Shown one piece after another: positions 8,830-52,272 of a DNA stretch of 64,000 bases; positions within the stretch are counted from its first letter, which is position 1; every line of letters begins with the position of its first letter. The DNA is taken from contig CAIWCC010000117.1 of the NCBI GenBank assembly GCA_903911085.1, forward strand, positions 62,001 to 126,000, in the 5' to 3' direction. This stretch comes from an uncultured Bacteroidales bacterium (GTDB taxonomy: Bacteria > Bacteroidota > Bacteroidia > Bacteroidales > Paludibacteraceae). The notes beneath the pieces were generated by a model. The model ran no database searches, was not told the DNA's origin, and saw only the letters and a list, made by a program, of their open reading frames with translations. Both the position numbers and the translations under genes were made by a program.

Positions 8830-10110
8830 ATGATGAAATCCAATTTCGCTAATAATTGTGGTGGTTTTGCCAAACAAGATTATAAACAATCAAAATCGGT
8901 TGTTTCATTAGTAGTTTTTGTAGTTTTTTTGTTTAGTGGTTGCAAATCAGATGAACCAATAGTATCTGATACAGGAATTCCACCTGTAATAACCATTGAA
9001 GCATATAATTCACAACCAGTATATGCAGGTGGAGTCTGGTCATTGAAAGATGAGAAAGGAATGGACGATCTAGCGAATCCTGCAAATTCCGACAGTTTTC
9101 GGGCAAAAGGTGGTCGTTTGTATATTCATGAATTAGGCTGGGATTACACATCAAAAGCCAACCAAGCTATTATTGCTGGACTATTTCCAAATTCACCAAT
9201 GTGGGAATCATCTTATTCTGAGACATCTGGGGTTGGACATATAATGAGTATACTCAGAGGTCGCCTTGTTACATACTGGAAAAAGGCCGATTATCTTACT
9301 GTGAATTTTCTTTCCGATAAATCTACAGCTCAAATGCAAGAAGTGCGTGACTCAACTAATGATTTTGTTGGAAAGGTTGCTCCCATTTTTTCGCCAAATT
9401 CAGGCGCTTGGAATGGTGCACCTTGGAATAGTACAAAGTGGGACCAAACCAGAGTCAATATTAAAATTGGTGGCGCTTTGGCTACCGATTCTCCTCCTTA
9501 TTTTTATTTGTCTCAGCCCGAGGGGTATAAAGCATTTATTGCCGACGAGATTAAATGGTGTAAGGCAAATAATATCGACATGATTGCTATAATACATCCG
9601 GGTACAAGTGTCGATTTCAATGAAGATTTTAGAAAATACCGTGCCGATTTAAAAGCAAGAGGTGCTGTGCCAGATATTTGGGCAGTGGAATGTTATTATG
9701 GAGGTCCTGGAGGTTTGCACCCAATTGGAAGTGAAGAAACTGCGAATGATTTGATGTACACAGCTTTGAAAAATACTGATTTTACTTTGTCAGGAAAAAA
9801 GAATTTTAGTTTTACCAATTCGTTAGTTGTTGACCCACTTATTTCTGCCGAGTTTCAAGGTGTTTCAAATATTGTAATCGGTATCAGCGGTGTTGATTCC
9901 GTTTCGGTGAATAAAGTTTCTAAAATTGAACTGTATATTGAAGATCAGCTTGTAAAAACTAAATTGCAAGCACCTTTTGAATGGAACAAGAACGGTGAGG
10001 ATGCTTTATTGAGTCATTTAGCAATTGGTAAATATAAATTAAAATTTGTTTCTACAGATGCTTTGGGTTTGGTGAAAACGTACACAATTAAAATTCAAAT
10101 TTCAAAATAA
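8830..10110 (+). CDS. Surface lipoprotein of unrecognised family with C-terminal Ig-like domain
   Basis: I do not recognise the family. The 426-residue product has a late lipoprotein signal (hydrophobic stretch ending LFSGC, cysteine at about residue 38) and an acidic run KSDEP right after the cysteine, which resembles the surface-export signals of Bacteroidota lipoproteins. The central region (about 55-325) alternates hydrophobic strands with segments such as IKWCKANNIDMIAIIHPG and PDIWAVECYYGG, compatible with a TIM-barrel-type glycosidase or glycan-binding fold. The last about 95 residues look like a bacterial Ig-like/cadherin-type beta-sandwich (IELYIEDQLVKT...). Placed directly after SusC/SusD, it occupies the usual position of a SusE/F-type surface glycan-binding protein or endo-acting surface enzyme. 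Two adjacent ATG codons (8830, 8833) make the start ambiguous by one residue. Confidence 0.8.
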   Translation: MMKSNFANNCGGFAKQDYKQSKSVVSLVVFVVFLFSGCKSDEPIVSDTGIPPVITIEAYNSQPVYAGGVWSLKDEKGMDDLANPANSDSFRAKGGRLYIHELGWDYTSKANQAIIAGLFPNSPMWESSYSETSGVGHIMSILRGRLVTYWKKADYLTVNFLSDKSTAQMQEVRDSTNDFVGKVAPIFSPNSGAWNGAPWNSTKWDQTRVNIKIGGALATDSPPYFYLSQPEGYKAFIADEIKWCKANNIDMIAIIHPGTSVDFNEDFRKYRADLKARGAVPDIWAVECYYGGPGGLHPIGSEETANDLMYTALKNTDFTLSGKKNFSFTNSLVVDPLISAEFQGVSNIVIGISGVDSVSVNKVSKIELYIEDQLVKTKLQAPFEWNKNGEDALLSHLAIGKYKLKFVSTDALGLVKTYTIKIQISK

Positions 10111-28200: not shown

Positions 28201-28460
28201 CCAAAATTAAAGTGAATGGAAAAGAAATGGGTGGCGTTTGGACAGCTCCATGGCAGATTGAGATTGGTTCGGTATTAAAAGCCGGTGACAATTCAATTGA
28301 AATTTCTGTGGTAAATAACTGGATGAACCGCTTAATCGGCGATTTGAAAATTCCTGTAGAACAACGTCCAACATGGACTATAACAATGCCGTACAAAGCC
28401 GATAATCCCTTACAAGCATCAGGTTTATTTGGACCAGTTAAAGTGTTGGAATTTAATTGA
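25215..28460 (+). CDS. GH106 alpha-L-rhamnosidase
   Basis: A 1081-residue secreted protein with the GH106 opening VYWYWMSDNISKDGVIKDLE, IGIFNSPGWSQSGGPWV, and the two acidic sites Glu448 (VVVEDSYETGGQNW) and Glu583 (KVSAESFTCGG), which correspond to the catalytic glutamates known from the Bacteroides BT0986 structure. The C-terminal part (about 930-1080) is the GH106 beta-sandwich ending in NNWMNRLIGDLKIP. GH106 enzymes release alpha-L-rhamnose by inversion with calcium dependence. It is one of three GH106-type genes in this locus, each presumably tuned to a different rhamnose linkage. Confidence 0.93.
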   Translation: MKKHVEFRLLLPLLLLFVFTVVSVKAVTNPKTFAQIESGFKNLPDSLKTSVYWYWMSDNISKDGVIKDLEAMKRVGINRAFIGNIGGQNVPYGKVKIFTNEWWDIIHTALKKATELNIEIGIFNSPGWSQSGGPWVKKEQSMRYLNSSEIEVTGPKMFRGKIQTPNADFQPVNVLAYKLPVKTEKLYRLLNPKISSQPNIDSIAFICDGNNKTQISIQSKKQLTVDFETSKIATVRSVLIQTSDKRTKAMGEIYAKQGVEFKLIKSFEINRTNFSINVGFDPYAPIVISIPETNSTNFRLVIKDVVAAGGIAEVELSATPIMERYPEKSLAKMFQTPLPYWKDYLWDAQPEVTDKNLVIDPKTVIDISKFKSADGTINWKVPAGRWKIVQTGMTSTGATNGPASPEATGLETDKMSKKHIEAHFDAYLGEILRRIPAADRKTWKVVVEDSYETGGQNWTDGLLTEFTTKYGYSPVPYLPIIKGNVVGSRDKSDRFLWDLRRMVADKVSYDYVAGLREVSHKNGLTTWLENYGHWGFPGEFLQYGGQSDEIGGEFWSEGSLGDIENRAASSCAHIYGKTKVSAESFTCGGKAFSRHPANMKPRGDRFFTEGINNTLLHLFIQQPDEREPGINAPFGNEFNRHNTWFEYMDLFTQYLKRTNFMLQQGNYVADVAYFIGEDAPKMTGICDPALPKGYSFDYINAEVIQTRLSVKNGKLVLPDGMTYSVLVLPKLETMRPELLSKIKSLVEAGAVVLGPAPKYSPSMQNFPLADKQVQEMAKRLWGNVDGVNVKSARVGKGMILSGMEMQEALDLVGIVPDFKVAKEDTTLFIHRTTGDAEIYFISNQTNKTITIRPEFRVTSKSPQLWSSVYATMRNLPAFHFNEKSTTVPLKLEAYESQFIVFNKNASQSSSLDLSANFPEGKLLADLSENWNVSFDNAKRGPKNPVEFKTLSDWTISANDSIKYYSGTAIYNKNLKLDKLTTGKSIFLNLGNLTSMAKIKVNGKEMGGVWTAPWQIEIGSVLKAGDNSIEISVVNNWMNRLIGDLKIPVEQRPTWTITMPYKADNPLQASGLFGPVKVLEFN

Positions 28461-28485: not shown

Positions 28486-29829
28486 ATGAAACGAATAACA
28501 TTCTTCATGCTTTTGCTGATTGTCAGTAAAGTTACAACGGCACAAAATCCTATTTGTCCGCCGGGATTAAACATAGCCGACCCAACCACCCGTGTTTGGA
28601 AAGATGGAAAGTTGTATGTGTATGGTTCTCGCGATGAAAGTCCAAAGTATTACTGCTCCTACGACCATTGGGTGCTGTCCACTTCGGATTTAATTCATTG
28701 GGAATATACGCCTAATGCATTTGCATCAAAAGGACCAAACGATAAAATTCCGTTTAACGACAGACTGCTTTTTGCACCGGATTGCATGTATAAAAATGGA
28801 ACATACTATTTGTATTATTGCCAAAGTGGCGACAATGAAGGAGTTGCAACAAGCAAATCTCCTTTAGGTCCATTTGAAAATGCCAAAGAGATTTATTTGA
28901 AAAAGAAAAATCAAATTGATCCAGCTGTTTTTATTGATGATGACGGACAAGCTTATTATATCTGGGGACAATTTCAAGCTAAAATTGCAAAGTTAAAACC
29001 CAATATGACCGAAATTGATACTACCAGCATTGTGGATAATTTGGTGACTGAAAAGGAGCATTATTTTCACGAGGGCAGCTATATGGTGAAACGAAATGGT
29101 ATTTATTACTTTGTGTATGCTCATATGGGTCGTAAAGGAATGCCTACCTGCATTGGATATTCAACTTCAAAATCGCCATTTGGTCCATTTAAATATGGTG
29201 GAGTTATTGTGGATAATGATGGTTGTGACCCGCAAAACTGGAATAATCACGGTTCGATTGTGGAATTCAAAGGCAAATGGTATGTGTTTTATCATCGTAC
29301 TACCAACGGAGTAATTTGTCAACGCAAGGCTTGCATTGAACCGATTACTTTTAATGCTGATGGAAGTATAAACGAAGTGGAAATGACCTCCCAAGGTGCT
29401 GGTAAGCCGCTAGATGCTTTTTCAAAAATTGAAGCCGAACGTGCTTGTTTGCTTTTTGGACACATTCGGATTGAAAAACAAAGCTTAGACAGCTTAAACC
29501 CTGTAAATCCTGCAAACAATGATATGTTGGCACAAATTGAAAACAAAGACTGGGCGGCTTATAAATATATTGAATTTGGCGATGGTGCAAAAACTTTTAG
29601 CGTGAAAGTGGCGCCAGGAAGCAAAGCAGGTAAAATTGAACTGCTTGTTGACAATAGTTGGACAGGAGCTTTAGGAAGCATAAAAGTTCCAGCAGGTGGA
29701 GATTTGAAAACATGGCAAACGCTTAGTTGTAATATTAAGCCGCTGTCTGGCAAACATGCAATTTGGCTTCGCTTTAGTGGCGACGGCGAGGAGATGTTTA
29801 ATGTAGATAATTTTTATTTTGAAAAATAG
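28486..29829 (+). CDS. GH43-family five-bladed propeller glycosidase with C-terminal CBM6
   Basis: A 447-residue secreted protein (signal peptide ending TTAQ). The GH43 catalytic triad is visible: Asp32 (NIADPTTRVWKDGK) as base, Asp145 (QIDPAVFIDDDG) as pKa modulator and Glu196 (HYFHEGSYMVKRNG) as acid. The C-terminal about 130 residues, including DWAAYKYIEFGDGAKTFSVKV, look like a CBM6-type carbohydrate-binding module. GH43 enzymes mostly remove alpha-L-arabinose, beta-xylose or beta-galactose side chains; the specificity here is not predictable by eye. The next gene starts 31 bases downstream. Confidence 0.9.
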   Translation: MKRITFFMLLLIVSKVTTAQNPICPPGLNIADPTTRVWKDGKLYVYGSRDESPKYYCSYDHWVLSTSDLIHWEYTPNAFASKGPNDKIPFNDRLLFAPDCMYKNGTYYLYYCQSGDNEGVATSKSPLGPFENAKEIYLKKKNQIDPAVFIDDDGQAYYIWGQFQAKIAKLKPNMTEIDTTSIVDNLVTEKEHYFHEGSYMVKRNGIYYFVYAHMGRKGMPTCIGYSTSKSPFGPFKYGGVIVDNDGCDPQNWNNHGSIVEFKGKWYVFYHRTTNGVICQRKACIEPITFNADGSINEVEMTSQGAGKPLDAFSKIEAERACLLFGHIRIEKQSLDSLNPVNPANNDMLAQIENKDWAAYKYIEFGDGAKTFSVKVAPGSKAGKIELLVDNSWTGALGSIKVPAGGDLKTWQTLSCNIKPLSGKHAIWLRFSGDGEEMFNVDNFYFEK

Positions 29830-29860
29830 ATCGTTTAATTATACTAAAAATAAAACACAA

Positions 29861-31627
29861 ATGAATTCTAAACTAAAAAATTTAACCCTTGCGTTTGTAT
29901 TAATTTGTCTGAGTTTACAAACTTTTAATGCTCAGGAAATTAAAACTTTAGCAGCAACCGATACGAAAGAGCGAACTACACAGTTGGTTCGAAAATTTCT
30001 GACACCAACCCGAATCGTTTGGATGTCTGATAACTCTGGTAAAAGTGTACAAAATGCCGAAGTATTGTTGAAACCTGGAACAGGACAGTCAGTCCTAAAC
30101 AAGGATAAAGGCTTTCAACTCAAAAGTTCAGCAACAGAATTGCCTATGATTGTTCTTGATTTTGGCAAAGAAATTCAAGGTGGCTTAGAAATTATTACAA
30201 CTATTAATAATGAAAAGAAAATGCCTCGCCTGCGCATTCGCTTTGGTGAATCGGTAAGTGAAACCATGAGCAATGTTGGTGAAAACGGAGCAACCAATGA
30301 ACATGCCATGCGCGATATGATTGTTCAATTACCTTGGTTGGGCCGTATGGAAATTGGCAATTCTGGCTTCCGTTTTGTAAGTATTCAACTGATTGATACT
30401 GATTCAAAAATTGAGTTGAAAGAACTAAGTGCCATTTCGTCAAAACGTGAGCTAACATATCAAGGTTCATTCAAATGTAATGACGAACGATTGAATCAGA
30501 TTTGGATGACCGGTGCTTATACAGTTCATTTGAATATGCAGGATTATTTATGGGATGGTATAAAACGCGACCGATTGGTTTGGGTAGGCGATTTACATCC
30601 CGAAGTAATGACCGTAAATTCTGTATTTGGTTACAATGAGGTAGTACCTAAAAGTTTGGATTTGATTCGCGATTTAACACCACTTCCTGCATGGATGAAC
30701 GGATTGGGGTCGTATAGTATGTGGTGGATTATTATTCATAAAGATTGGTATAAATATCAGGGAAATCTGGACTATCTAAAACAACAGAAAACATATATGT
30801 TTAAATTGCTGAGATTATTAGCTACTAAAATTGATGATTCTGGCAAGGAAAAACTGGAAGGCGGACGATTTTTGGATTGGCCATCGAGCGAAAACCCCAA
30901 AGCCATTCATGCCGGATTGCAATCGATGATGGTTATGACCTTTCAGGCTGGTGAAGAATTAAGTGCTGTTTTGGGTGATAAATCTATGGTAGCTTTCTGT
31001 GATTCGACTGTTTTGAAACTAAAAAAACATGTGCCTGAAGCAAATAATTCTAAGCAAGCCGCATCGTTATTGGCTTTATCGGGACTTGTGCCTGCTGAGC
31101 AATCCAATTCCGAGGTTTTGGCAAAAGATGGCGTTCACAATATGTCCACTTTTTATGGTTATTACATGCTTAAAGCGCGCGCACAAGCCGGAGATTTTCA
31201 AGGTGCACTGGATAATATACGTGAATATTGGGGTGGAATGCTCGATTTAGGAGCTACTACTTTCTGGGAAGATTTCGATATAAACTGGTTGAAAAATGCC
31301 AACCGGATTGATGAACCAATTTCAGCTGGTAAAGTGGATGTTCATGCGGCTTATGGGGGCTATTGTTACAAAGGTTTCCGACATAGTTTTTGTCACGGAT
31401 GGGCGTCTGGCCCAACTTCCTGGTTGAGCGAAAATGTGTTGGGGGTAAAAGTGATTGAAGCTGGTTGTAAAGTGGTGAAAATTGAACCGCATTTGGGCGA
31501 TTTAAAGTGGGTGGAAGGTAGTTTCCCAACACCTTATGGTAACATAAAAATCAGACACGATAAAAGACCTGATGGAACAGTAAATTCAACGATTTCTGCA
31601 CCAAAAGGAGTTAAAATTATCAAATAG
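29861..31627 (+). CDS. GH78-like rhamnosidase, compact form
   Basis: A 588-residue secreted protein (signal peptide ending FNAQ). It has only one N-terminal beta domain (about 60-205, with LDFGKEIQGGLEI and RIRFGESVSE) and the (alpha/alpha)6 barrel. The active-site segment DGIKRDRLVWVGD gives Asp232, Asp237 and Asp244 in the same spacing as D-E-D of GH78, but the acid position is Asp237 instead of Glu. TTFWEDFD supplies Glu470 as base. I start at ATG 29861; an in-frame TTG at 29819 overlaps the GH43 gene and gives no signal peptide. Probably an alpha-L-rhamnosidase of a GH78 side branch, cotranscribed with its neighbours. Confidence 0.85.
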   Translation: MNSKLKNLTLAFVLICLSLQTFNAQEIKTLAATDTKERTTQLVRKFLTPTRIVWMSDNSGKSVQNAEVLLKPGTGQSVLNKDKGFQLKSSATELPMIVLDFGKEIQGGLEIITTINNEKKMPRLRIRFGESVSETMSNVGENGATNEHAMRDMIVQLPWLGRMEIGNSGFRFVSIQLIDTDSKIELKELSAISSKRELTYQGSFKCNDERLNQIWMTGAYTVHLNMQDYLWDGIKRDRLVWVGDLHPEVMTVNSVFGYNEVVPKSLDLIRDLTPLPAWMNGLGSYSMWWIIIHKDWYKYQGNLDYLKQQKTYMFKLLRLLATKIDDSGKEKLEGGRFLDWPSSENPKAIHAGLQSMMVMTFQAGEELSAVLGDKSMVAFCDSTVLKLKKHVPEANNSKQAASLLALSGLVPAEQSNSEVLAKDGVHNMSTFYGYYMLKARAQAGDFQGALDNIREYWGGMLDLGATTFWEDFDINWLKNANRIDEPISAGKVDVHAAYGGYCYKGFRHSFCHGWASGPTSWLSENVLGVKVIEAGCKVVKIEPHLGDLKWVEGSFPTPYGNIKIRHDKRPDGTVNSTISAPKGVKIIK

Positions 31628-31643
31628 AATGTCACTAAAATAA

Positions 31644-33389
31644 ATGAAAAATTCGCTTTTAATTGCCTCATTGCTTGTAAGTTATTTATTAGCTGCGCAA
31701 AATACGCCACCATTCCCCATTGAAAATTCCAATTGGGTGGCTACCGATGCACTTGGGCGTGTATTGCCAAACTACAAACAAACGGGAGCTACAAAAAGCG
31801 AAAAATGGGTGGGGCTTTTTTATTATATCTGGCATGGCTATCATGGTCCTCAAGATACCATTTACGACATTACAAAAATGATTGCAAAGAATCCCGTGAA
31901 TCCTGAATATGGTCCACATCGTCTGTTTCATTACTGGGGTGAGCCAGAAGCTGGATATTATCGTTCGGATGATCCTTGGGTAATTCGCCGCAACATTGCC
32001 ATGATGGCTGCCGCTGGAGTTGATTTTGTTTATTTTGATGTTACAAATGCATTCATTTATTTGCCTACGCTTGAAAAATACTGCGATATTTCCCTCGAAA
32101 TGAGGAAGAAAGGAATTAATGCGCCTTATATTTCATTTGCAACAAACGCAAAAAGTGGTGAAACCATAAATCAGCTTTACAATGAATTCTATTCAAAAAA
32201 AGAATATAAAGATTTGTGGTTTTACTGGGAAGGCAAACCGCTGGTTTTAGGTCAGATTGCCGATTCTGTATTAAAATCAGAAGCAAAAAACTTTTTCAAT
32301 ATTAAATACAGTTGGGCATGGACTGATGCAAAAAACAAACCAAATCATTGGCAATGGATTGACAATTATCCACAGGATTTTGGTTGGAGTACGCCTAATG
32401 TCCCTGACCAAATACCTGTAGCTGTGGCATCGCATCCCATTTCCAATATTGGCAATAGCTATTCGAATGGCAATGAACCTGAACACAACATTTATAAACT
32501 GACACCATTTACTGGTCAAGGACTTCATTTTGCAGAACAATGGAAAAGGGCGCTTGAAGTGCAGCCCAAAATTGTGATGATTACCCAGTTTAACGAATGG
32601 ATAGCACAGCGGTTTATTAACGGACTTGACCATAAACCTAAATTTTTGGGACAGGCGGCCGAAGAAGGCAGTACCTATTTTGTAGATGCCTATAATCAGG
32701 AATTTAACCGCGATATTGAACCCATGAAAGGTGGTCACACAGATAATATGTATTATCAAATGGTGAATTACATCCGTCTTTTCAAAGGTATGAAGGAGCC
32801 TGAAAATGCATTGACGGCGAAAATCAATATTGATGGAAAGTTTACTGATTGGCAGAACGTTAAGTCTGAATATATTGATTATGAAGGTGATATAGCACAT
32901 CGAAACTTTGCCAGTGCTAATAAGAAAATACAATATGTCAACAACACTGGAAGAAATGATATTGTCGCGTGTAAAGTAATCTATGACAGGAAGTTCGTTT
33001 ATTTTTATGCAAAAACCGTACGAACGCTTACTTCTTGCTCTGATAGAAATTGGATGATGTTATATTTGAATACAGATACCTTAAAATCAACTGGTTGGGA
33101 AGGTTATGAACTGCTTGTGAATAATAGTCCAAAAAGTTTCACCGAATCGAATATCAAGAAGTTTGTAAATGGAAATTGGTCTGAAATTGAGAAACTTAGA
33201 TATTGCTATTTTAAAAATGAATTAGAAATTGCTGTTCCAATAAAATATTTCAAAGTAAATAATTGTGAGTTGAACTTTTCTTTTCACTGGACTGATAATA
33301 ATCAAAAGCTATTGGATATAAACGAGTTTTTCGTCAATGGTGAATCAGCTCCCGATAGGCGTTTCGATTATTTTTTCACAAACCAATAA
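31644..33389 (+). CDS. GH71/GH99-like barrel protein with C-terminal carbohydrate-binding-like domain
   Basis: A 581-residue secreted protein (signal peptide ending LLAAQ). The N-terminal about 360 residues resemble GH71/GH99/WbsX-like TIM barrels: VGLFYYIWHGYHG at the first strand, AAAGVDFVYFDVTNA, and IVMITQFNEWIAQRF near the last strands. The C-terminal part from about residue 390 (KINIDGKFTDWQNVKSEYID...) has the look of a CBM9/DOMON-like sandwich that often binds sugars. An endo-acting or exo-acting glycosidase is likely; the substrate is unknown. It lies 16 bases after the GH78-like gene. Confidence 0.72.
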   Translation: MKNSLLIASLLVSYLLAAQNTPPFPIENSNWVATDALGRVLPNYKQTGATKSEKWVGLFYYIWHGYHGPQDTIYDITKMIAKNPVNPEYGPHRLFHYWGEPEAGYYRSDDPWVIRRNIAMMAAAGVDFVYFDVTNAFIYLPTLEKYCDISLEMRKKGINAPYISFATNAKSGETINQLYNEFYSKKEYKDLWFYWEGKPLVLGQIADSVLKSEAKNFFNIKYSWAWTDAKNKPNHWQWIDNYPQDFGWSTPNVPDQIPVAVASHPISNIGNSYSNGNEPEHNIYKLTPFTGQGLHFAEQWKRALEVQPKIVMITQFNEWIAQRFINGLDHKPKFLGQAAEEGSTYFVDAYNQEFNRDIEPMKGGHTDNMYYQMVNYIRLFKGMKEPENALTAKINIDGKFTDWQNVKSEYIDYEGDIAHRNFASANKKIQYVNNTGRNDIVACKVIYDRKFVYFYAKTVRTLTSCSDRNWMMLYLNTDTLKSTGWEGYELLVNNSPKSFTESNIKKFVNGNWSEIEKLRYCYFKNELEIAVPIKYFKVNNCELNFSFHWTDNNQKLLDINEFFVNGESAPDRRFDYFFTNQ

Positions 33390-33431: not shown

Positions 33432-35090
33432 ATGAAGCAATCATATTTATATCTTTTGCTAATCACTTGTTGTTTATTTACTTTTCAGTATAGTAAATCA
33501 ATTAATAATACAGAAATACTGCATGTTACAAATGCTTTGCCCGAAAGAGAAGTAAAAGTATATATTGGAATTTCAAATGGCTGGCACAGCACTGACAGCA
33601 CTCAAAATTACAGCAAATGGGATTATGTTCGTCGGAATGCCACCGGACTATATACCAACTTTATAGAAATGTGGAAATGTTTTTATCAGAATAAGGTGAA
33701 TACGCAAACTAGTTGCAACGATATGCGTAAAGCTTTTGTTAAAGGTGGTTGCTTTTTTGAAACAAGCATGGAAACAAAATTAAATACGGGAGTTAATGGA
33801 TTTAATAATGATTCAAGTGATAGACGATCACTCGATTTTCTTACACGCGCCAATTTTGATGTACAATATACTAGCTTAAATTATGGAATAAGTGCCGACC
33901 GAGTAAGTTTGCTACGGACTTATAAAGGAAATCGAAAATGTTTTTATTTGGCAGCACCGTGGCGATATGGTGGCGATATTTTCAGCGATAAAGCTGCTGC
34001 AAATGCAACTGTTCGTGCCGATATATTAACCACTGATGGTTTTGAAACAGATGGTCCATTAGGATATTGGTCTAATAATCAGGCGGGAATGCGCGAGGGA
34101 AGTTATTCGCTGGTTAAATATGCTAATTATTTCAATGTTGAATCGTCTATCATGCTTGCACCTTATGATGCAGGTATTGTAGGTTATAGCTCCTTGACTG
34201 ACTTTCTAACAGTTTCAAAACAATGTGTTTTGGGACACGAAGATAACAATGCTGCACCTGATATTTGGACAATTTGGACTTATGGTAATGATGTTGCGCT
34301 TCCAAATTTTCCTGAATCTATTGTAAATGCAGATGGTGAAGTAGAAGCTGCAAATACAAAAATGGGTGTAGCATATTGGTTATTGAAACATTTAAACAAT
34401 TTTCCCAAAGTTGACGTAAAAGCAAATTCATTGGTTGGAAATGGTGCGAATTTAAAAATTATCAATGATTCTGTTTCTGAGATTGAAATGAGTAAAGATG
34501 GTCAATGCACTTTACCAATTGTTATCTCCAACGACAATCAACCCCAAATAGAAATCTCACCTTTACTATCTGCTATTATTGACAACAATGGTGTAGATTG
34601 GAATATAAATTTCCTTTTGTCCGGCAAAATAGTTACACTGAATATGTTAGTACGTGGTGGAATAAATTGTATCAATGATTTGCGACTCTCAAAAGGAGTA
34701 AAACTCGATCTTGCTTTGCAGATATCACCCAAAAGTACGGTTCTAAACCCAAATCCGGTTGTTGTGAACTTGCAATGCATGAGTAATGTTTCAAATACGA
34801 AAAATAAAAAAACAGCTTATAAAGTGACCGTGAAGCTAAAATCCGCCACAGCCATTAATGATTTAAAATCGAGTCAGTTTAGTGTGTTTCCTAATCCGTC
34901 AAACGGCATTGTAACAATTCAATCAAATAATAATACGTTTAATTTGGATATTTATAATACCTCAGGAAATCAAGTTTATAGTGTACGAAATGCAAATACA
35001 GGCACTTCAATATCTTCAAAGGAGTTGGGTGGAAAAGGAGCTTATTTTTTTAAAGTAAACAATGAGGTAAAGAAAGTATTTATATTGTAA
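33432..35090 (+). CDS. Secreted T9SS cargo protein of unrecognised family (paralog family member 1)
   Basis: I do not recognise the family. The 552-residue product has a signal peptide (about residues 1-24, no lipobox) and a T9SS C-terminal sorting domain (about 480-552, FSVFPNPSNG... then GGKGAYFFKVN). The core (about 40-330) is shared with the two following genes: REVKVYIGISNGWHS, NYSKWDYVRRNATGLYTNF, RKAFVKGGCFFETSMET, SSDRRSLDFLTRANFDVQYTSL, TTDGFETDGPLGYW, MREGSY and LGHEDNNAAPDIWTIWTYG. The conserved Asp and Glu in the last motifs could be catalytic. A second beta-rich region (about 335-475) includes PIVISNDNQPQIEI. The context suggests a new type of secreted glycosidase or glycan-binding protein of the rhamnose PUL. 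Clear paralogs at 35159 and 36608 are lipoproteins. Confidence 0.8.
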   Translation: MKQSYLYLLLITCCLFTFQYSKSINNTEILHVTNALPEREVKVYIGISNGWHSTDSTQNYSKWDYVRRNATGLYTNFIEMWKCFYQNKVNTQTSCNDMRKAFVKGGCFFETSMETKLNTGVNGFNNDSSDRRSLDFLTRANFDVQYTSLNYGISADRVSLLRTYKGNRKCFYLAAPWRYGGDIFSDKAAANATVRADILTTDGFETDGPLGYWSNNQAGMREGSYSLVKYANYFNVESSIMLAPYDAGIVGYSSLTDFLTVSKQCVLGHEDNNAAPDIWTIWTYGNDVALPNFPESIVNADGEVEAANTKMGVAYWLLKHLNNFPKVDVKANSLVGNGANLKIINDSVSEIEMSKDGQCTLPIVISNDNQPQIEISPLLSAIIDNNGVDWNINFLLSGKIVTLNMLVRGGINCINDLRLSKGVKLDLALQISPKSTVLNPNPVVVNLQCMSNVSNTKNKKTAYKVTVKLKSATAINDLKSSQFSVFPNPSNGIVTIQSNNNTFNLDIYNTSGNQVYSVRNANTGTSISSKELGGKGAYFFKVNNEVKKVFIL

Positions 35091-35158
35091 TTACCTCAGT
35101 ATTTTAAATCGTTGTAATTATTTTTACTTTAGAAATTCATACATAACCAATAAATAAT

Positions 35159-36598
35159 ATGATAAAATCATTAATCTATAATACGTTATCAGTAGCTTTA
35201 TTTCTAGTATTTTTTTGCTTAATACAAGGTTGTAAAACTGCTAGCGAGCCAAATCCAGAGCCACCTATTGTAAATAAAACAGTAACAGTTTTGCCCGATA
35301 AAGAAGTAAAAGTTTATTTTGGAGCTTCGGGTAATTGGGCAGAACAGGAAAATCCACTCAACTACAGCAATTGGAGCTATGTTCGTGAAAATGCCGATGG
35401 CTATTATGCAAACTTTATTTCGATGTGGGTTTGCTTTTATCAAAACAAAGGAAAAGCGCCATTACAAAGTTGCATCGATATGCGAAAAGCATTTGTAAAA
35501 GGAGGTTGTTTTTTTGAAACAAGTATGGAAACATCAGTTAATACTGGTGCAAATGGTTTCAATAACGATTCTACCGATCGTAGAAGCTTAGGTTTATTGA
35601 CTAGTGGTGGATTTAAGGTAGATTATACTAGTTTAAATTATGGAGTAAATGCCGATCGTGTTACTCTACTTAAAACATACAAAGGAAACAGAAAGTGTCT
35701 TTGCTTGTCTGCACCTTGGAATTATGGTGGGAATCTTATTAGTGATGTTGTAACAGGGAATAAACAGCAACGTACTAATATTTTGACTACTGATGGTATG
35801 CAAACAGATGGACCCTTGGGTTTTTGGTTTGTTAATAACAAAGGTATGCGAGAAGGTAGTTATTCATGTGTAAAATATGTGTGGAAATACAATCTTGAAG
35901 CTGCAATAATGTTAGCACCTTTCTCTGCCGATGTGGTTGGGTATAATGCTGCAACAGATTTTTTGACAATATCAAAACAATGTGTGTTTGGGCACGAAGA
36001 CAACAATGCTGCACCTGAAATTTGGACAATATGGACTTATGGAAGCCCCGCAGAACTAACTTTATTGCCCGAGTCTGCTGTTAATGACCAAGGCGAAGTA
36101 TATGCACTTAATACGAAAACGGGCGTAGCTTATTGGCTTTTAAAACATTTAAAAACATTCCCCAAAATTAGCTGCAAGGAAACCGGAAAAGTAAACAACG
36201 ATGTAACAGTAACTCTTACAAACGACTCAGTCGTAGATGTGAAATTGACAAAAAATGTTCAATACTTATTGCCTATCACAATATCAAATGATAATCAACC
36301 CCAAATTGAAATTACACCCGTGATAAGAGCAGTATTGAATGAAGCCGCAAATGACTGGATTATAAGCTTCTGGGTTGGAACAAAAGATGTTACCGATAAG
36401 GTTATTTACAATGGTGGTTTAAATTGTATTGATGCATATAGACTTACCAAAAACAATAGAATGACGCTTACAATGCAAATTAAATCGCGCTCAACTGTTG
36501 AAAGTCCTGCTCCATTAACTATAAATTTGCAGTCGATGGCAAATATATCAAACACCAAGAATAAACAGAGTTTTAAAATGACCATCAATCCCTTATAA
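35159..36598 (+). CDS. Lipoprotein of unrecognised family (paralog family member 2)
   Basis: A 479-residue paralog of the gene before it, but with a lipoprotein signal (hydrophobic stretch, then LIQGC with Cys25), a Pro/Glu-rich linker (EPNPEPPI), and no T9SS domain. The core motifs are all present: NYSNWSYVRENADGYYANF, RKAFVKGGCFFETSMET, TDRRSLGLLTSGGFKVDYTS, TTDGMQTDGPLGFWF, MREGSYSCVKYVW and FGHEDNNAAPEIWTIWTYG. The C-terminal beta region (about 340-479) contains PITISNDNQPQIEIT. It is very close to member 3 at 36608 over the whole length. Predicted to be anchored in the outer membrane, probably facing out or in the periplasm. Function unknown; enzyme activity is inferred only from the PUL setting and the conserved acidic residues. 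Confidence 0.8.
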   Translation: MIKSLIYNTLSVALFLVFFCLIQGCKTASEPNPEPPIVNKTVTVLPDKEVKVYFGASGNWAEQENPLNYSNWSYVRENADGYYANFISMWVCFYQNKGKAPLQSCIDMRKAFVKGGCFFETSMETSVNTGANGFNNDSTDRRSLGLLTSGGFKVDYTSLNYGVNADRVTLLKTYKGNRKCLCLSAPWNYGGNLISDVVTGNKQQRTNILTTDGMQTDGPLGFWFVNNKGMREGSYSCVKYVWKYNLEAAIMLAPFSADVVGYNAATDFLTISKQCVFGHEDNNAAPEIWTIWTYGSPAELTLLPESAVNDQGEVYALNTKTGVAYWLLKHLKTFPKISCKETGKVNNDVTVTLTNDSVVDVKLTKNVQYLLPITISNDNQPQIEITPVIRAVLNEAANDWIISFWVGTKDVTDKVIYNGGLNCIDAYRLTKNNRMTLTMQIKSRSTVESPAPLTINLQSMANISNTKNKQSFKMTINPL

Positions 36599-36607
36599 TT
36601 AAATAAT

Positions 36608-38047
36608 ATGAAAAAATCAATAATTTACAACACCTTATCAATTGCAATACTTCTAGCTTTTTTTGTTACAACACAAGGTTGTAAAACTGCTAACGAACCA
36701 AATCCAGAGCCACCAATTGTAAATAAAGTAGTAACGGTTTTGCCCGATAAGGAAGTAAAAGTATATTTTGGAGCTGAGCACAACTGGCACGAACAAGACG
36801 ATCCTCTCAATTATAGTAAATGGAGTTATGTGCGTGAAAATGCTGATGGTTATTATGCTAATTTTATTTCTATGTGGATAATGTTTTATCAAGATAAAAC
36901 AGCGCTACCACCGGTGAGTTGCAGCGATATGCGAAAAGCATTCAAAAAAGGAGGAGTTTTTTTCGAAACTAGTCTGGAAACTTCCGTTAACTCTGGTGCC
37001 AATGGTTTTAATAATGATTCAACCGACCGAAGAAGTTTAATATTATTGACAAATGCTGGATTTAAAGTAGATTATACCAGCCTCAATTATGGTGTAACTG
37101 CCGATAGAGTTACTTTGCTTCGAACATACAAAGGAACCAGAAAGTGCCTTTGCTTGTCTGCACCGTGGAAGTATGGCGGAAATATTATTAGCGATGCTGC
37201 TACAGCTAATAAACAGCAACGAATCAATATATTAACCACAGATGGTATGCAAACGGATGGACCTCTTGGATTTTGGTTTAACAATGGCGGTGGTATGCGT
37301 GAAGGCAGTTATTCATGTGTAAAATATGTATGGAAATACAAACTTGAAGCCGCTGTGATGCTGGCACCTTTTAAAGCATCAATTCCGGGTTATGAAGCAG
37401 AAAACGATTTTTTGAATGTTTCCAAACAATGCGTTTTAGGTCATGAGGATAACAATGCTGCACCCGAAATATGGACAATATGGACATACCAAAGTCCTGC
37501 AGGTTTGGCTCTTTTTCCAGAATCGGCTGTTAATGCAGATGGTGAAGTGTATGCTCCTAATACGAAAGCGGGTGTAGCTTATTGGTTGTTAAAACACTTG
37601 AAAAATTTCCCGAAATTAACCTGTAATGAAACAGGTAAAGTAAATAATGATGTAACAGTAACGCTTACAAATGACTCTGTTGTTGATGTTAAATTGACCA
37701 AAGACGTTCAATACTCAATGCCTATAACAATATCAAACGATAATCAACCCCAAATTGAAATTACCCCTGTGATAAGGGCTATCTTAAATGAAGCCGCAAA
37801 TGACTGGATTATAAGCTTCTGGGTTGGCACAAAAGATGTTACCGATAAGGTTATTTATAATGGTGGTTTAAATTGTATTGATACTTATAGACTTACCAAA
37901 ACCAATAGATTGACACTTAAAATGCTGATTAAGTCACGTTCAACCGTTGCAAGTCCTGCTCCATTAACTATCAATTTGCAGTCGATGTCAAATATATCAA
38001 ATACAAAGAATAAACAGAATTTTAAAATTACTGTTAATCCCTTGTAA
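36608..38047 (+). CDS. Lipoprotein of unrecognised family (paralog family member 3)
   Basis: A 479-residue tandem duplicate of member 2, 9 bases downstream of it, with a lipobox-like TTQGC (Cys25; the Thr at -3 is not the usual Leu/Val/Ile, but Bacteroidota lipoboxes are relaxed) and the same EPNPEPPI linker. Core motifs: NYSKWSYVRENADGYYANF, RKAFKKGGVFFETSLET, TDRRSLILLTNAGFKVDYTS, TTDGMQTDGPLGFWFNN and LGHEDNNAAPEIWTIWTYQ. Members 2 and 3 differ most around residues 55-110 and 225-250, possibly surface loops. A stretch near the 3' end is almost identical at DNA level (see findings). No recognised family; no function is claimed. Confidence 0.8.
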   Translation: MKKSIIYNTLSIAILLAFFVTTQGCKTANEPNPEPPIVNKVVTVLPDKEVKVYFGAEHNWHEQDDPLNYSKWSYVRENADGYYANFISMWIMFYQDKTALPPVSCSDMRKAFKKGGVFFETSLETSVNSGANGFNNDSTDRRSLILLTNAGFKVDYTSLNYGVTADRVTLLRTYKGTRKCLCLSAPWKYGGNIISDAATANKQQRINILTTDGMQTDGPLGFWFNNGGGMREGSYSCVKYVWKYKLEAAVMLAPFKASIPGYEAENDFLNVSKQCVLGHEDNNAAPEIWTIWTYQSPAGLALFPESAVNADGEVYAPNTKAGVAYWLLKHLKNFPKLTCNETGKVNNDVTVTLTNDSVVDVKLTKDVQYSMPITISNDNQPQIEITPVIRAILNEAANDWIISFWVGTKDVTDKVIYNGGLNCIDTYRLTKTNRLTLKMLIKSRSTVASPAPLTINLQSMSNISNTKNKQNFKITVNPL

Positions 38048-38063
38048 TCAATAAATCAAGTAT

Positions 38064-40004
38064 ATGAAACGTTCAAAAATACCTTTTTGCTTTATAATTC
38101 TTTTTATTTTTGGTTCAATATCAGGGATTAAAAGTCAATTGAATTTTGCTCCAACAAAAATAAGCTATCCCGCAAAAATTACGTGGGGAACGTTTATGTA
38201 TTCAGAGCAGCTTTTCGACAGACCCGAACGTTGGGCTTATGTGCGAAAACATATCGACTCGTATCTAATGCACCAACAGTATTGGCTTCCTGCCAACTAC
38301 TTGGTGTATTGCCCTGGCCCAATAGCCGGCAAAAACAGGTATGCCGAATTTGCAGCTATTATTGGGAATAAACCGGTAGTATTAGAAAATGCCGTTTATT
38401 TTCATGCTTGGGGAGTGCCTACTGCCATTGATGAAGATGTTGCCAATCAATGGGTTAACAATATTATGACTTCGCAGGTTAATCCACTGCGAAAAGCAGG
38501 GATAAACTTGACAGATGTTAACATTGATATGGGTCCAAAATCTGGTTTAACTGGTACTGCACTTCGTCATCCCGATTGGAAAGAGGCCGATTTAGTTGCA
38601 TTATATGGCAATGGTACAGCGGGTGGCTATACTGGCACAAAACCTGTTGGTAATGGTTTTTGGAAATCATTTGTTGAAAAACTAAAGCTACAAGCGCCTC
38701 AAGTGAAGGCTAATATTGTTGCTTCACCAGTATATTTTAATTGGATTGAACCGGGTAAAACGCCTTATACAAGTTCAATGGCCAATCATTTGAAATTTGA
38801 TTCTATCGTAGATTATTCAAAAAACACAGTTAAGATTAATGGAAAGAATGTAATTTTTAACTTTGATGGTTATCAGTGGTTTACAAGTCATTTTGTAGGC
38901 GTGTCGCCAACTATCTCAACTTCTTTCGTTTCGGATGCACCTTATTTATATTGGAATTGGGGAAATTTCACTGTACGTGATGCTTTCCGAAATATTATAA
39001 AAGGGTACGAAGCATGGTTGCATGCCAACAACCGTCAACATCATCTTATTGTTACCGGTGCAGCTGCAGTAGATCCACTTTCCGGACAAGCGGATGCGGC
39101 TTATTGCAGTGCATCTCAAATAGATAGGGACAAACTCGACAAGGGTTATTACGAATCGAGTATGAGTGGCATAAAATTGTATCAAAAACTGGGTATTAGA
39201 GCCGATAATTATGTGGTGGAAAGTTGGTTGAAATATCCGTATGATGTGGCCGACGAAAGTAATCCATATTCGTTTGCCTCAGTTGGAAAAGATATAATAA
39301 AATATCTCAAAGGTCCGAATCTGAAACTTGACCTCAAAAGAGTGAATGGAACTGGCTTTCAGGGCGCAGGAGTTTACGACACGCTTGCCATACCGAATCA
39401 ACAGGTGTTTGCAGATGTATTACCAACTGTAGGTACTTCAAAAACTTATGAATTTGTTGTGGATAATACAAATAATTTTGAAGTGCTGCCAATGCTTAAA
39501 ATGCAGACCTTAAAAATGACTGGAGCAACAGTTACTGTTTTTTACAATAATATGGACATTACCAATGATATAATGTCTGTTAATGGTTTTACCTTTACTG
39601 ATGTTTTATCAACAACCACGTCTTCAAAAATTAAGGTAGTTGTTAATAATATTTCTAAATCATTGAACGATGAGGCTGGTTTATGCTTATGGCTATATTG
39701 GAATCCTCAAGATCCTTATGGTCACCGCGATGCTATGGCGATAACTTACAATAAAATCACTGATAATAAAAGTGTATTTCAAACATTCGGGTTCAGTATT
39801 TTTCCAAATCCTGCCACTAGTTTTATAACAATTCAAGCTGGCTCTGTTCCAACCGACTTGTATATTTATAATTCCTTAGGACAACAAATTCAGACATTTG
39901 CGGATGTAAAATCTGAGTTCACAATTCCAACTGCAAAATTTGGGGGTAAAGGAATTTATTTTATTCGAATGAAGTCAACTTTAAAAAAACTATTGATATT
40001 ATAA
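38064..40004 (+). CDS. Secreted T9SS cargo protein of unrecognised family
   Basis: I do not recognise this family. The 646-residue product has a signal peptide (ending IKSQ, about residue 25) and a T9SS sorting domain (about 574-646, FSIFPNPATSFITI... then GGKGIYFIRMK). Its N-terminal core (about 30-400) has alternating beta and helical segments such as AGINLTDVNIDMG, VKANIVASPVYFNW, NVIFNFDGYQWF and ADNYVVESWLKYP, consistent with a TIM barrel; the motif WAYVRKHIDSYLMHQQYW resembles the W-YVR-N-G-Y-NF motif of the three preceding paralogs, so a distant relationship is possible. A beta-rich region (about 410-565) precedes the sorting domain. The gene follows member 3 after 16 bases. Confidence 0.75.
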   Translation: MKRSKIPFCFIILFIFGSISGIKSQLNFAPTKISYPAKITWGTFMYSEQLFDRPERWAYVRKHIDSYLMHQQYWLPANYLVYCPGPIAGKNRYAEFAAIIGNKPVVLENAVYFHAWGVPTAIDEDVANQWVNNIMTSQVNPLRKAGINLTDVNIDMGPKSGLTGTALRHPDWKEADLVALYGNGTAGGYTGTKPVGNGFWKSFVEKLKLQAPQVKANIVASPVYFNWIEPGKTPYTSSMANHLKFDSIVDYSKNTVKINGKNVIFNFDGYQWFTSHFVGVSPTISTSFVSDAPYLYWNWGNFTVRDAFRNIIKGYEAWLHANNRQHHLIVTGAAAVDPLSGQADAAYCSASQIDRDKLDKGYYESSMSGIKLYQKLGIRADNYVVESWLKYPYDVADESNPYSFASVGKDIIKYLKGPNLKLDLKRVNGTGFQGAGVYDTLAIPNQQVFADVLPTVGTSKTYEFVVDNTNNFEVLPMLKMQTLKMTGATVTVFYNNMDITNDIMSVNGFTFTDVLSTTTSSKIKVVVNNISKSLNDEAGLCLWLYWNPQDPYGHRDAMAITYNKITDNKSVFQTFGFSIFPNPATSFITIQAGSVPTDLYIYNSLGQQIQTFADVKSEFTIPTAKFGGKGIYFIRMKSTLKKLLIL

Positions 40005-43104: not shown

Positions 43105-45171
43105 ATGATGACTAATTTAAAAATTTTCTTCATAGCAATCAATTTGTTTATCTTGTTGATAAATAATTCAGTAGCAAGCGAAACGAGCTATCCAAATCAT
43201 CCTTTTCTGCTGTTGAATCAGTCGGAAATAAATACATTGCGCAGCGAGATTTCAACCCCAGGTTGGAAAGCCGATTTATATAAAAATCCAACTCGCGATT
43301 TTACAATGCTACCTACCGGCATTGGAATTCGAAGTAATGCAGAACTATGGTTAAAGCGCGACATTTCAATTCCAGCTCGTAGCGGTCATTATCATGATTT
43401 CTTTTGTGAAGATGGAACACGATTGGAAATTCCTGCGGGACAAGTATTTGTCTCAGGTCCTTATCGTTGCCCCGCTTGTGGCAAAACCTATTCAGGCGAA
43501 AAATATGAGGCTGCCTATCGTCGTTTCATTCATGCTGATTTAGATGTGGCAGCACTCGATTTGGCACTTGTTTCAGTATTGGAAAACAGGCCTGAATATG
43601 CCGCAAAATCTGCTGAAATATTATTGAAATATGCCGAGGCATATCCCGGTCCGCATACTGATATAACCACCGGTGGCATTATTTATCAAACGCTCGACGA
43701 GTCGATGTGGGTAATTCCGTTGGCACAATCGTACGACCTTATTTACAATACACTTGCTAGCAACCAACGTACAAAAATTGAAACATTCCTTCGTACCGTT
43801 GCTTCAGGTATTCAAAAGTGTGGAGCTGGTGGTAATTGGGGCTCATGGCACTTGTCGGCAGTTGGTAGTATTGGATATGCCATTGGTGATAAGGACTTTG
43901 TAGAATGGGCAACAACAAATTTCAAAAAGCAAATCAAAAGCGATTTGGGCGACGATGGACTTTGGCCGGAATCTGTTCAAACCTATCATTTCTTTCCATT
44001 GCAGGCATTTTTATTTTTTGCCGAAACCTCCATGCGAGCAGGAGTTCCACTTTATAACTGGGAAGGAAAGCCTGGCAAATCATTGATGAAAATGTTTACA
44101 GCACCGTTGGATTATATGTATCCCAACTTCAGATTACCAGCTATTAATGATGGTTGGTTCGATTCATTTATTCCTGCCGATTTGTACGAATTAGCCGCCT
44201 ATCGTGATAAAAACCAGCAGTTTCAGTATGTGCTTGCAAATGGATATAAAACTTCTTTGGTAAAAATAGATGAATCTGGTATAAAGAGCAATTTTACGAA
44301 GCGTGATGGATTGTATGCCTTTTTGTTTGGAAAAAATGCAGATAATCAGCCAACAATTATAAAACCCGAATCAATCAATTTTCCTGTTTTGGGTTATTTT
44401 ATGTCTAAATCGAAAAATGAAAATATGATGACGTTCGATTATGGAAAATATATGGGTCATGGTCAGTTCGACAAAATGGGAATCACGCTTTTTGCGAACA
44501 ATAAATTGTGGATGGCTGATTATGGAACACCCGGTTATGGATCTAAGATTTTGGAGTGGTACAAATCATCTTTTGCTCACAACGTGGTGGTAGTTGACGG
44601 TAAACAACAAGCCAAAACCAAAGAAAATTCCATTGAAATTTGCAGTTCAACTCCCGAATATGAAATGGTTCGTTCTAAAACAACTCAAGCATACAAAGGC
44701 GTTGAATATCAAAGAACTATTATTCAAAAAAATGACTATTTCGTTGTTGTCGATGATTTAAAAAGCGATTCGGCTCATGTGTATGATTTTTATTTGCACA
44801 GCGAAGGAAAGCTTGAACTAAAAGGCAAATTAGGTGATAGTACTTCGTATTTGCTTCCCAGCAAATGGCTTAATAAAGCAGCCATGCGATTGCCTCAAAA
44901 GCAAATTAATGGTCAATGGGCTGAAAAATCCGAAGGCATTGCAATATGGATGAGTGGAAGCACACCTTTGACCGCACTCTCTACAAAATGCCCTGCAGAA
45001 ACTGGTAATCGAAAAATTGATTTATTAATTGCCAGACAGAGCGGTACTTCATCTAGATTTATAACGGTTCTTTATCCGTTTAAAGCAAAAGAAAAACTTA
45101 ATATAAAACTTAAAAATGGAATTCTTAATGTAAAAAGTGGCACTGTTAACGACAAGATAATTTTGCCTTAA
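43105..45171 (+). CDS. Heparinase II/III-type polysaccharide lyase
   Basis: A 688-residue secreted protein (signal peptide ending SVAS). The N-terminal (alpha/alpha) toroid (about 50-380) includes a CPACGKTYSGE zinc-ribbon-like pair and GGNWGSWHLSAVGSIGYAIGD. The C-terminal heparinase II/III beta-sandwich (about 390-688) contains MGHGQFDKMGITLFANNKLW and YKSSFAHNVVVVDGKQQ. Such lyases cleave next to uronic acids by beta-elimination, leaving unsaturated ends that the GH105-type enzyme at 10149 can remove. The overall length and the CPAC motif resemble the alginate/heparin lyase superfamily, but I cannot assign a PL family. Two adjacent ATGs (43105, 43108) leave the start uncertain by one residue. 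Confidence 0.83.
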   Translation: MMTNLKIFFIAINLFILLINNSVASETSYPNHPFLLLNQSEINTLRSEISTPGWKADLYKNPTRDFTMLPTGIGIRSNAELWLKRDISIPARSGHYHDFFCEDGTRLEIPAGQVFVSGPYRCPACGKTYSGEKYEAAYRRFIHADLDVAALDLALVSVLENRPEYAAKSAEILLKYAEAYPGPHTDITTGGIIYQTLDESMWVIPLAQSYDLIYNTLASNQRTKIETFLRTVASGIQKCGAGGNWGSWHLSAVGSIGYAIGDKDFVEWATTNFKKQIKSDLGDDGLWPESVQTYHFFPLQAFLFFAETSMRAGVPLYNWEGKPGKSLMKMFTAPLDYMYPNFRLPAINDGWFDSFIPADLYELAAYRDKNQQFQYVLANGYKTSLVKIDESGIKSNFTKRDGLYAFLFGKNADNQPTIIKPESINFPVLGYFMSKSKNENMMTFDYGKYMGHGQFDKMGITLFANNKLWMADYGTPGYGSKILEWYKSSFAHNVVVVDGKQQAKTKENSIEICSSTPEYEMVRSKTTQAYKGVEYQRTIIQKNDYFVVVDDLKSDSAHVYDFYLHSEGKLELKGKLGDSTSYLLPSKWLNKAAMRLPQKQINGQWAEKSEGIAIWMSGSTPLTALSTKCPAETGNRKIDLLIARQSGTSSRFITVLYPFKAKEKLNIKLKNGILNVKSGTVNDKIILP

Positions 45172-52100: not shown

Positions 52101-52272
52101 TCTTTGGGCAAACAGACTTATTGGTGATAGTAAATTGCCTGTCGAAAAACGACTTACCAAAACAAATGTTATAAAATTTGAAACTCCCGATTCAGAAAAG
52201 TTGTTGCGAGTGTCAGGCTTAGTTGGACCTGTAAATATTGTTACCCAAAAAGTGTTTAACTTGAAAAAATAA
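49156..52272 (+). CDS. GH106 alpha-L-rhamnosidase, second full-length copy
   Basis: A 1038-residue secreted GH106 (signal peptide ending LVAQS). Seen here: CYWWWLNSMATKESITRDME, LSVNVQSGWNPGAPS, the acidic site Asp318/Glu321 (LQTDSWEMGVANW), Glu458 (FVAAEGPTSIGPQ), and the GH106 C-terminal sandwich with DLGNVKEMASIKINGHQ and NLWANRLIGDSKLP. It is clearly related to the GH106 at 25215 but divergent, for example SWEMG in place of SYETGG at the first acidic site, which suggests a different rhamnose linkage or context. The GH2 gene starts 18 bases downstream. Confidence 0.92.
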   Translation: MIKTFFISTFVFFSLTLVAQSQQNLFTNRKVSNIQLEAGFKTPTQESRLRCYWWWLNSMATKESITRDMEEMKAKGYGGASLVDAGSSSYSIALKNAPGPVFMSREWMELYKHAVREADRFGIELSVNVQSGWNPGAPSITPEYALKKVVWSEVNVTGGQVLNLDLALPKNQLMYEDILVQAIPNKPSQKNEIKNWAKKSFTDKIGSMGIYPLHYLLRTDFENKPNDVVIKKNEIIDVTSFFKNGKLTWNAPAGEWTIIRYGYTCTGVRTSTTSDGWSGLSLDHLSVEAFDLFSKTVILPLIKTAQEVGSSVKFLQTDSWEMGVANWTKKLPAEFRKYRGYDIANFMPVLAGRIVDSRNESNRFLHDFRKTVGDCVAENHYRQFYNVAHKYGMGIHPESGGPHSAPVDGLRVMAISDFPQGEFWATANTHRVKDEARLSVKQSACVAHTNGKRFVAAEGPTSIGPQWERAPMDLKANIDRVFCSGVNRIVWHTFSSSPKEFGLPGNEYFAGTHLNPNVTWWKQSVDFISYLNRSSYMLQQGLYVADVLYYYGDDVPNFVFMKEEVPELNFGYDWDKCSKEVILNRLSFDGNKIVLPDGMSYRILMLPNEKSIDLNVLRKIEKLVKAGMTLVGPRPSETTGFSNYPNEDAALKIIADKLWGKIDGKTIVENSYGKGHVVWGKDVNDVLANLNVKPDFQFKGTHTNARLDYIHRSTENQEIYFISNRFGQMQFNDFQYRYLSTLPDRYEQVECSFRVTNKVPEFWNPITGEIQEIVNYRIENGLTIIPLLFEPEGSKFIVFKNAPEVPHIVEIKKDNQSIFPNFDMQTKALGYINFKKNNGKVSAIVNQPGVYNLVWSDGRREEIKSLTENTVIPLTGEWEIYFDAKWGAPANAKTSELKSWTEFDDNGIKYYSGTATYHKSFELSDTNLKENILFLDLGNVKEMASIKINGHQMQVIWSAPFLFDITDYVIAGINKLEVEVVNLWANRLIGDSKLPVEKRLTKTNVIKFETPDSEKLLRVSGLVGPVNIVTQKVFNLKK

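Follow-up and report, generated by a model that had tools for sequence, protein, structure and literature searches.

What do three adjacent, co-directional genes of no recognised family do inside a rhamnosidase-rich polysaccharide utilization locus (PUL)? The question is raised by a stretch of 64,000 nucleotides (the window) of contig CAIWCC010000117.1, from an uncultured Bacteroidales bacterium, in which an initial annotation made from the sequence alone had described a secreted protein family that might be a new glycosidase or a glycan-binding family. Our analysis indicates that the triplet is most likely a derived, amplified branch of an extracellular glycan-active barrel family. On balance we consider it probable that this is a new TIM-barrel glycan-active family, in which the triplet carries altered catalytic residues or has a binding role. 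The three genes are as follows.

33432..35090, + strand: copy 1 (pA), 552 amino acids (aa), with a secretion signal (by eye), the family core, a C-terminal beta domain and a type IX secretion tail
35159..36598, + strand: copy 2 (pB), 479 aa, with a lipoprotein-like N-terminus (by eye), the family core and a C-terminal beta domain
36608..38047, + strand: copy 3 (pC), 479 aa, with the same parts as copy 2

The three tandem paralogs of the initial annotation were confirmed as intact open reading frames at exactly these coordinates, separated by gaps of 68 and 9 bases and sharing a core of about 430 residues. With copy 2 as the reference, identity was 83% for copy 3 and 57% for copy 1. Rates of non-synonymous and synonymous substitution (dN and dS, Nei-Gojobori) were 0.11 and 0.87 between copies 2 and 3, and 0.37 and 1.93 between copies 2 and 1. 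As dN is well below dS, the copies are genes under purifying selection and not chance reading frames. The motifs first listed as common to all held in part: RKAF-KGG-FFET, TTDG-TDGPLG-W, MREGSY and GHEDNNAAP-IWTIWTY are present in all three copies, and only copies 2 and 3 carry exact YVREN and TDRRS, for which copy 1 reads YVRRN and SDRRS. Copy 1 matched Por_Secre_tail with 36.8 bits (cut-off 27), which identifies it as a type IX secretion substrate, and copies 2 and 3 did not match this profile in the same scan. The N-termini of these two look lipoprotein-like, with a Cys after a hydrophobic stretch, as read by eye. As a side observation, residues 341-420 differed between copies 2 and 3 with a dN of only 0.022, against 0.10-0.18 for their barrels, and the same residues compared with copy 1 gave a dN of 0.55, above the 0.24-0.30 of the barrels. 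This pattern suggests possible gene conversion between copies 2 and 3 (35159-38047).

The core had been called unrecognised, and this stood: Pfam, NCBIfam and PHROGs gave no convincing match to it, and searches of the PDB sequences with copy 2 and with a four-sequence profile returned short weak matches only. The newness of the family holds relative to these libraries. No description of the family was found in a literature search that had subscription journals and the CAZy database outside its scope.

One clear relative outside the genome was found. This protein, L5, is encoded on contig MWCJ01000018.1 (G515:C18) of Bacteroidetes bacterium ADurb.Bin217 and is 25% identical to the triplet across the whole core (pairwise E 2e-20; hhalign probability 97.7%), with which it also has a PES...WLLKH segment in common. 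L5 is the N-terminal module of a 1402-aa protein, ahead of CBM6 and cadherin repeats, and an enzyme is plausible because L5 thus stands where a CBM6 protein would have its catalytic module. Searches of the genome that holds the window with copy 2, the four-sequence profile and L5 recovered the triplet and one weaker relative, which itself lies inside the window:

8830..10110, + strand: P2, 426 aa, a divergent, lipoprotein-like (by eye) relative directly downstream of TonB receptor and SusD genes

P2 matched the family at E 1.1e-5 over positions 153-250 of a profile of 434 positions, and a search of a small database with the four-sequence profile gave E 4.2e-7. Its C-terminal Ig-like region scored 21.3 bits against Big_7, below the cut-off of 24.1.

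An AlphaFold model of the L5 core (predicted local distance difference test, pLDDT, 58.6; predicted template modelling score, pTM, 0.64) resembled a (beta/alpha)8 barrel, which is the fold of TIM-barrel glycoside hydrolases. We predict with moderate confidence, on the basis of this model, that the core is a divergent (beta/alpha)8 barrel. The structure prediction and Foldseek search suggested at the outset for finding a TIM barrel gave a divided answer: the L5-core model is barrel-like, but TM-scores stayed below 0.5 and the structural matches, a mixture of barrels, name no enzyme family.

Candidate active-site residues were placed by laying the secondary structure of the L5-core model on a five-sequence alignment (copies 1-3, L5 and P2). 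The segments concerned in copy 2 are given here.

35510..35521, + strand: FFET, with Glu at the C-terminal end of strand 3, a candidate active-site residue (equivalents from 33753 and 36959)
35804..35815, + strand: TDGP, an Asp-x-Pro with a candidate active-site Asp (equivalents from 34047 and 37253)
36020..36034, + strand: IWTIW, strand 8, with the second Trp in the Glu column (equivalents from 34263 and 37469)

The strand-3 Glu (FFET; VEGD in L5) is kept in copies 1-3 and L5. Invariant in all five sequences are the Asn of SLN (FVN in L5) after strand 4, a Tyr after strand 8, and the Asp and Pro of the Asp-x-Pro (TDGP, VDAP, TDSP) just before predicted strand 6. The place of the latter relative to the cleft is uncertain, because it borders a part of the model that has low confidence. 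The strand-3 Glu and the Asp-x-Pro Asp, both conserved in copies 1-3 and L5, are the candidate carboxylates. A Glu after strand 8 is found in L5 (GVEIYG) and P2 (AVECYY) and is replaced by Trp in all three copies (TIWTYG), which weakens the term glycosidase for the triplet and keeps open a binding or altered-activity alternative. The glycosidase part of the initial proposal stood in so far as the position of L5 makes an enzyme plausible, and lost ground for the triplet with the absence of the strand-8 Glu. The acids of GHEDNN, which the initial annotation had named in favour of a new glycosidase or glycan-binding family, did not fit a catalytic role: their counterpart in L5 is LEDND, placed where helix 7 ends and in the loop leading to strand 8, and P2 lacks them. 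For these two reasons we do not read them as catalytic, and from the model they are probably structural.

The neighbourhood of the family is conserved on the two contigs. In the window, a GH99-like gene lies just before the triplet and g4 just after it:

31644..33389, + strand: GH99-like protein, a conserved neighbour on both contigs, with 21.6 bits to GH99 (PF16317; Pfam cut-off 33)
38064..40004, + strand: g4, 646 aa, a conserved neighbour with a type IX tail (32.1 bits, cut-off 27)

The GH99-like protein is 31% identical over 649 aligned columns (E 6e-86) to a module on the L5 contig (L024 17635-21150). That module drew no direct Pfam match at E 0.001, and its GH99-like label rests on homology to the window protein, itself sub-threshold for GH99. 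No PDB sequence matched the GH99-like family at E 0.1. The two genes following L5 encode a GH5 module and this GH99-like module, each ahead of a tail like that of L5 (56% identity over 621 columns and 58% over 566 columns). Next to the GH99-like gene follows one for a g4 homologue (G515:C18 1444-3045, L056), 65% identical to g4 and fused to repeats that, by eye, look CBM/cadherin-like. In the opposite direction from L5 come first a hybrid two-component regulator and then a protein that carries F5/8 domains and a GH2 barrel match below threshold, and that has only its last ~150 residues in common with L5. As GH99-like, family and g4 genes neighbour each other on both contigs, the neighbourhood is conserved, with the unrecognised module in the place of a catalytic module. 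The two genomes belong to different families of one order (placement by genome search).

From its sequence g4 may be a further, very distant member of the family, at a similarity that is not significant. SDAPYLY and VVES are found in it at comparable positions, and its C-terminal domain is similar to that of the family. Against the four-sequence profile g4 ranked highest of all sequences other than the known members (8.6 bits, E 0.03; the best of 1000 g4/P2 shuffles reached 5.7 bits), and against the five-sequence profile it was not among the best 25 matches listed. Profile-profile comparison of g4 and its 65% homologue with the family gave probabilities of 1.6%, 4.5% and 18.7% in three set-ups, with a reversed control of 0.1% that covers the first set-up only. 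Besides itself, g4 had six matches in its own genome, all in the type IX tail region; it matched two of 60 genomes of the order (its own, and a second through a frame interrupted by stops, E 0.0028) and one of three chosen genomes (the homologue in G515).

The rhamnosidase PUL of the initial annotation was borne out by a TonB-dependent receptor, two SusD genes and the following genes of the window, listed here with a lyase.

3824-6889: TonB-dependent receptor
10149-12023: GH88
18432-21239 and 29819-31627: GH78-type rhamnosidases
22947-25193, 25215-28460 and 49156-52272: GH106
28486-29829: GH43
43105-45171: PL17-like lyase
52291-54072: GH2

SASA-type and BD-FAE-type esterases and two deacetylases are also encoded in the window. 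As a set, these neighbour genes suggest a polysaccharide that is acylated and contains both rhamnose and uronic acid, and it is from them that a rhamnose/uronate polysaccharide is suggested as the substrate of the triplet. Other genes were noted in and near the locus. A URO-D/MtaA-like methyltransferase gene (15863-17038), above the Pfam URO-D cut-off and far under the NCBIfam cut-offs, lies within the PUL and perhaps serves O-methylated sugars. Tandem BNR_4 propeller proteins, both of 498 aa, are encoded at 12037-13533 and 13612-15108. The BNR_4 Pfam family includes ulvan-lyase-like propellers; the first of the two proteins had no PDB sequence match at E 0.001. Upstream of the window (G000:C117 22001-62000) the contig encodes a PL8 lyase, another GH106 and several secreted proteins with no enzyme family; the degradation island extends past the window.

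The family was found in very few genomes. The whole-genome draws were overlapping samples, and the counts include the genome of the window itself. Copy 2 alone matched two of 395 genomes of the phylum (E 0.001), of which only its own was accepted. In 393 genomes of the order, the three-sequence profile (E 0.001) and the four-sequence profile (E 0.01) each matched three, and the accepted positives were the own genome and G515 only. The four-sequence profile found only the own genome among 61 genomes of the taxonomic family (E 0.01), two others of the same genus being negative, and again only the own genome among 296 of the phylum (E 0.001). Three matches were dropped as chance, their reading frames looking unrelated: G372 (E 8e-4), G492 (E 4.4e-4; a frame that we take to be acyl-CoA dehydrogenase-like) and G430 (E 0.0021; presumably short-chain dehydrogenase-like). 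In the genome_contigs collection, none of 95 pattern stretches was confirmed with the three-sequence profile and one of 60, the L5 contig, with the four-sequence profile. In the viral_contigs collection, none was confirmed with the three-sequence profile (0/119), the four-sequence profile (0/38) or L5 alone (0/31). Collection scans with g4 and with P2 confirmed 0/1 each, and plasmids had no match to copy 2 or to g4. As far as these overlapping samples reach, the family is rare.

P2 alone gave matches in 19 of the 393 order genomes at E 0.01, with 21 loci outside its own genome, 10 of which were read (nine translated, and the L5 gene in G515). The nine translated loci were not taken as members, as the match was a local helix-strand segment; six of them encode ~430-aa proteins of one other family, which we take to be GH99-like, and the other three are presumably GH84-like. 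In its own genome P2 had, besides itself, two weak N-terminal matches only (E 0.026 and 0.066).

Taken together, the origin of the family, and partly its present role, would most likely be that of an extracellular glycan-cleaving module acting on the rhamnose/uronate polysaccharide of the locus. Copies 1-3 would be exported, copy 1 by type IX secretion and copies 2 and 3 probably as surface lipid-anchored proteins, each with a small beta domain behind its predicted (beta/alpha)8 barrel. The substrate cleft would lie at the C-terminal end of the barrel. In the triplet its proposed working residues are the strand-3 Glu, the Asn that follows strand 4, the Asp-x-Pro Asp and the Tyr that follows strand 8; only L5 and P2 would have the Glu after strand 8 in addition. 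The triplet would either use the pair of strand-3 Glu and Asp-x-Pro Asp or have been converted to glycan-binding barrels. Cleavage would precede SusC/D import, and the GH78 and GH106 rhamnosidases and GH88 would then finish the fragments. Of this picture, the genes with their paralogy and constraint, the homologues, the modular position of L5 and the conserved neighbours are observed, and the substrate, the catalysis, the localisation of copies 2 and 3 and the roles of the residues are inferred. A more specific version, which we hold tentatively and with slightly less than even confidence, is a new carbohydrate-active (beta/alpha)8 family that is very rare in the sampled Bacteroidota, with L5 and P2 as the ordinary enzyme form, a single lineage having triplicated the gene and exchanged the strand-8 Glu for Trp, the triplet having a rebuilt or abandoned active site, and one rhamnose/uronate target for all.

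Several results weigh against a glycan-active barrel family. The barrel assignment is carried over to the triplet from a relative of ~25% identity, and a model of copy 2 built with the three paralogues had a pLDDT of 36 and was discarded. In the L5-core model strand 5 is a two-residue bridge, and residues 104-121 and 132-162 are under pLDDT 50. Foldseek TM-scores (model-normalised) were at most 0.49 among the 50 matches listed, only three of 1114 matches had E <=0.001, and the GH5 matches aligned poorly, at 10 to 13 angstroms. In the VIA ranking pyruvate kinase barrels came top and many non-glycosidases stood as high as glycosidases, so that the fold does not mark the protein as a hydrolase. 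Of the glycosidase and lyase profiles in Pfam and NCBIfam, none was above its cut-off for copies 1-3, the copy 2 barrel, P2 or L5, and these had sub-threshold profile matches to other kinds of family only. The family itself rests on one outside sequence plus P2; the significant part of the P2 match is the strand 6-8 region only, and the strand-3 Glu of P2 is one column off.

The loss of the strand-8 Glu to Trp in the whole triplet, when L5 and P2 keep it, would also suit surface proteins that descend from a TIM-barrel enzyme and bind glycans without catalysis, with an aromatic-rich cleft gripping the polysaccharide and with L5 and P2 still enzymes. The lipoprotein-like N-termini of copies 2 and 3 and the many aromatics among the invariant residues agree with this. 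However, a binding protein need not keep the strand-3 Glu, the strand-4 Asn and the Asp-x-Pro Asp, all invariant in the triplet; two carboxylates could suffice for hydrolysis, and the strand-8 Glu is only putatively catalytic. We find pure binding rather unlikely. As the chemistry cannot be read from the fold matches, and as the window encodes a PL17-like lyase, SASA/BD-FAE type esterases and two deacetylases, the same barrel might belong to an extracellular lyase, esterase or transglycosylase that modifies glycans, and not to a hydrolase. This seems improbable to us, since the GH5 and GH99-like modules that follow L5 with the same tail on the ADurb.Bin217 contig favour hydrolases.

The core might, finally, be a structural or spacer protein, SusE/F or DUF1735-like, with no glycan site. 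PMC11216935 proposes DUF1735 as a membrane-bound spacer for carbohydrate-active enzymes and gives 89% of DUF1735 as N-termini. In our case PF08522/DUF1735 matched the C-terminal part of copy 2, with 15.5 bits and thus below the cut-off of 25.9, and had no listed match in copies 1 and 3. This match takes up part of the C-terminal domain in one of three copies, separate from the barrel region, and a spacer is the least probable of the explanations considered.

A glycan-active barrel family, the explanation we prefer, would be of some consequence. Many PUL genes still lack an assignment, and a family that takes the place of the catalytic module in a CBM-linked protein makes a promising candidate for a new activity. 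The Glu-keeping L5 and P2 and the Glu-lacking triplet offer a direct test of barrel enzymes becoming binders or changing mechanism. If confirmed, the activity would also be a lead to the glycan on which this rhamnosidase-rich locus acts.

Compared with known systems, the likeness to DUF1735 (BT_3987-like_N, PF08522) is weak and sub-threshold, C-terminal instead of N-terminal, and found in one copy of three. GH99 (PF16317) is related by position, a GH99-like gene neighbouring the family on both contigs, whereas the triplet itself has no similarity to GH99: no Pfam match was found at E up to 1, and hhalign gave probabilities of 0.7% for the triplet against GH99/GH99-like and 0.1% for the family profile. 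The family resembles TIM-barrel glycoside hydrolases (GH20, GH53, GH18) in its predicted barrel, its export, the CBM link of its relative and the PUL setting, and entries that we take to be GH30 and GH5 were among the fold matches; it differs from them in having no sequence profile match and weak TM-scores. Clan GH-A has its acid pair at strands 4 and 7, unlike the candidate acids of the family at strands 3 and 6 (and also 8 in the relatives). The closest system is the uncharacterised L5 module, which differs from the triplet in its ~25% identity, the Glu after strand 8, its single copy and the CBM6/cadherin fusion, and is like it in whole-core homology, the Asp-x-Pro, the strand-3 Glu, the C-terminal beta domain and the GH99-like and g4 homologues nearby.
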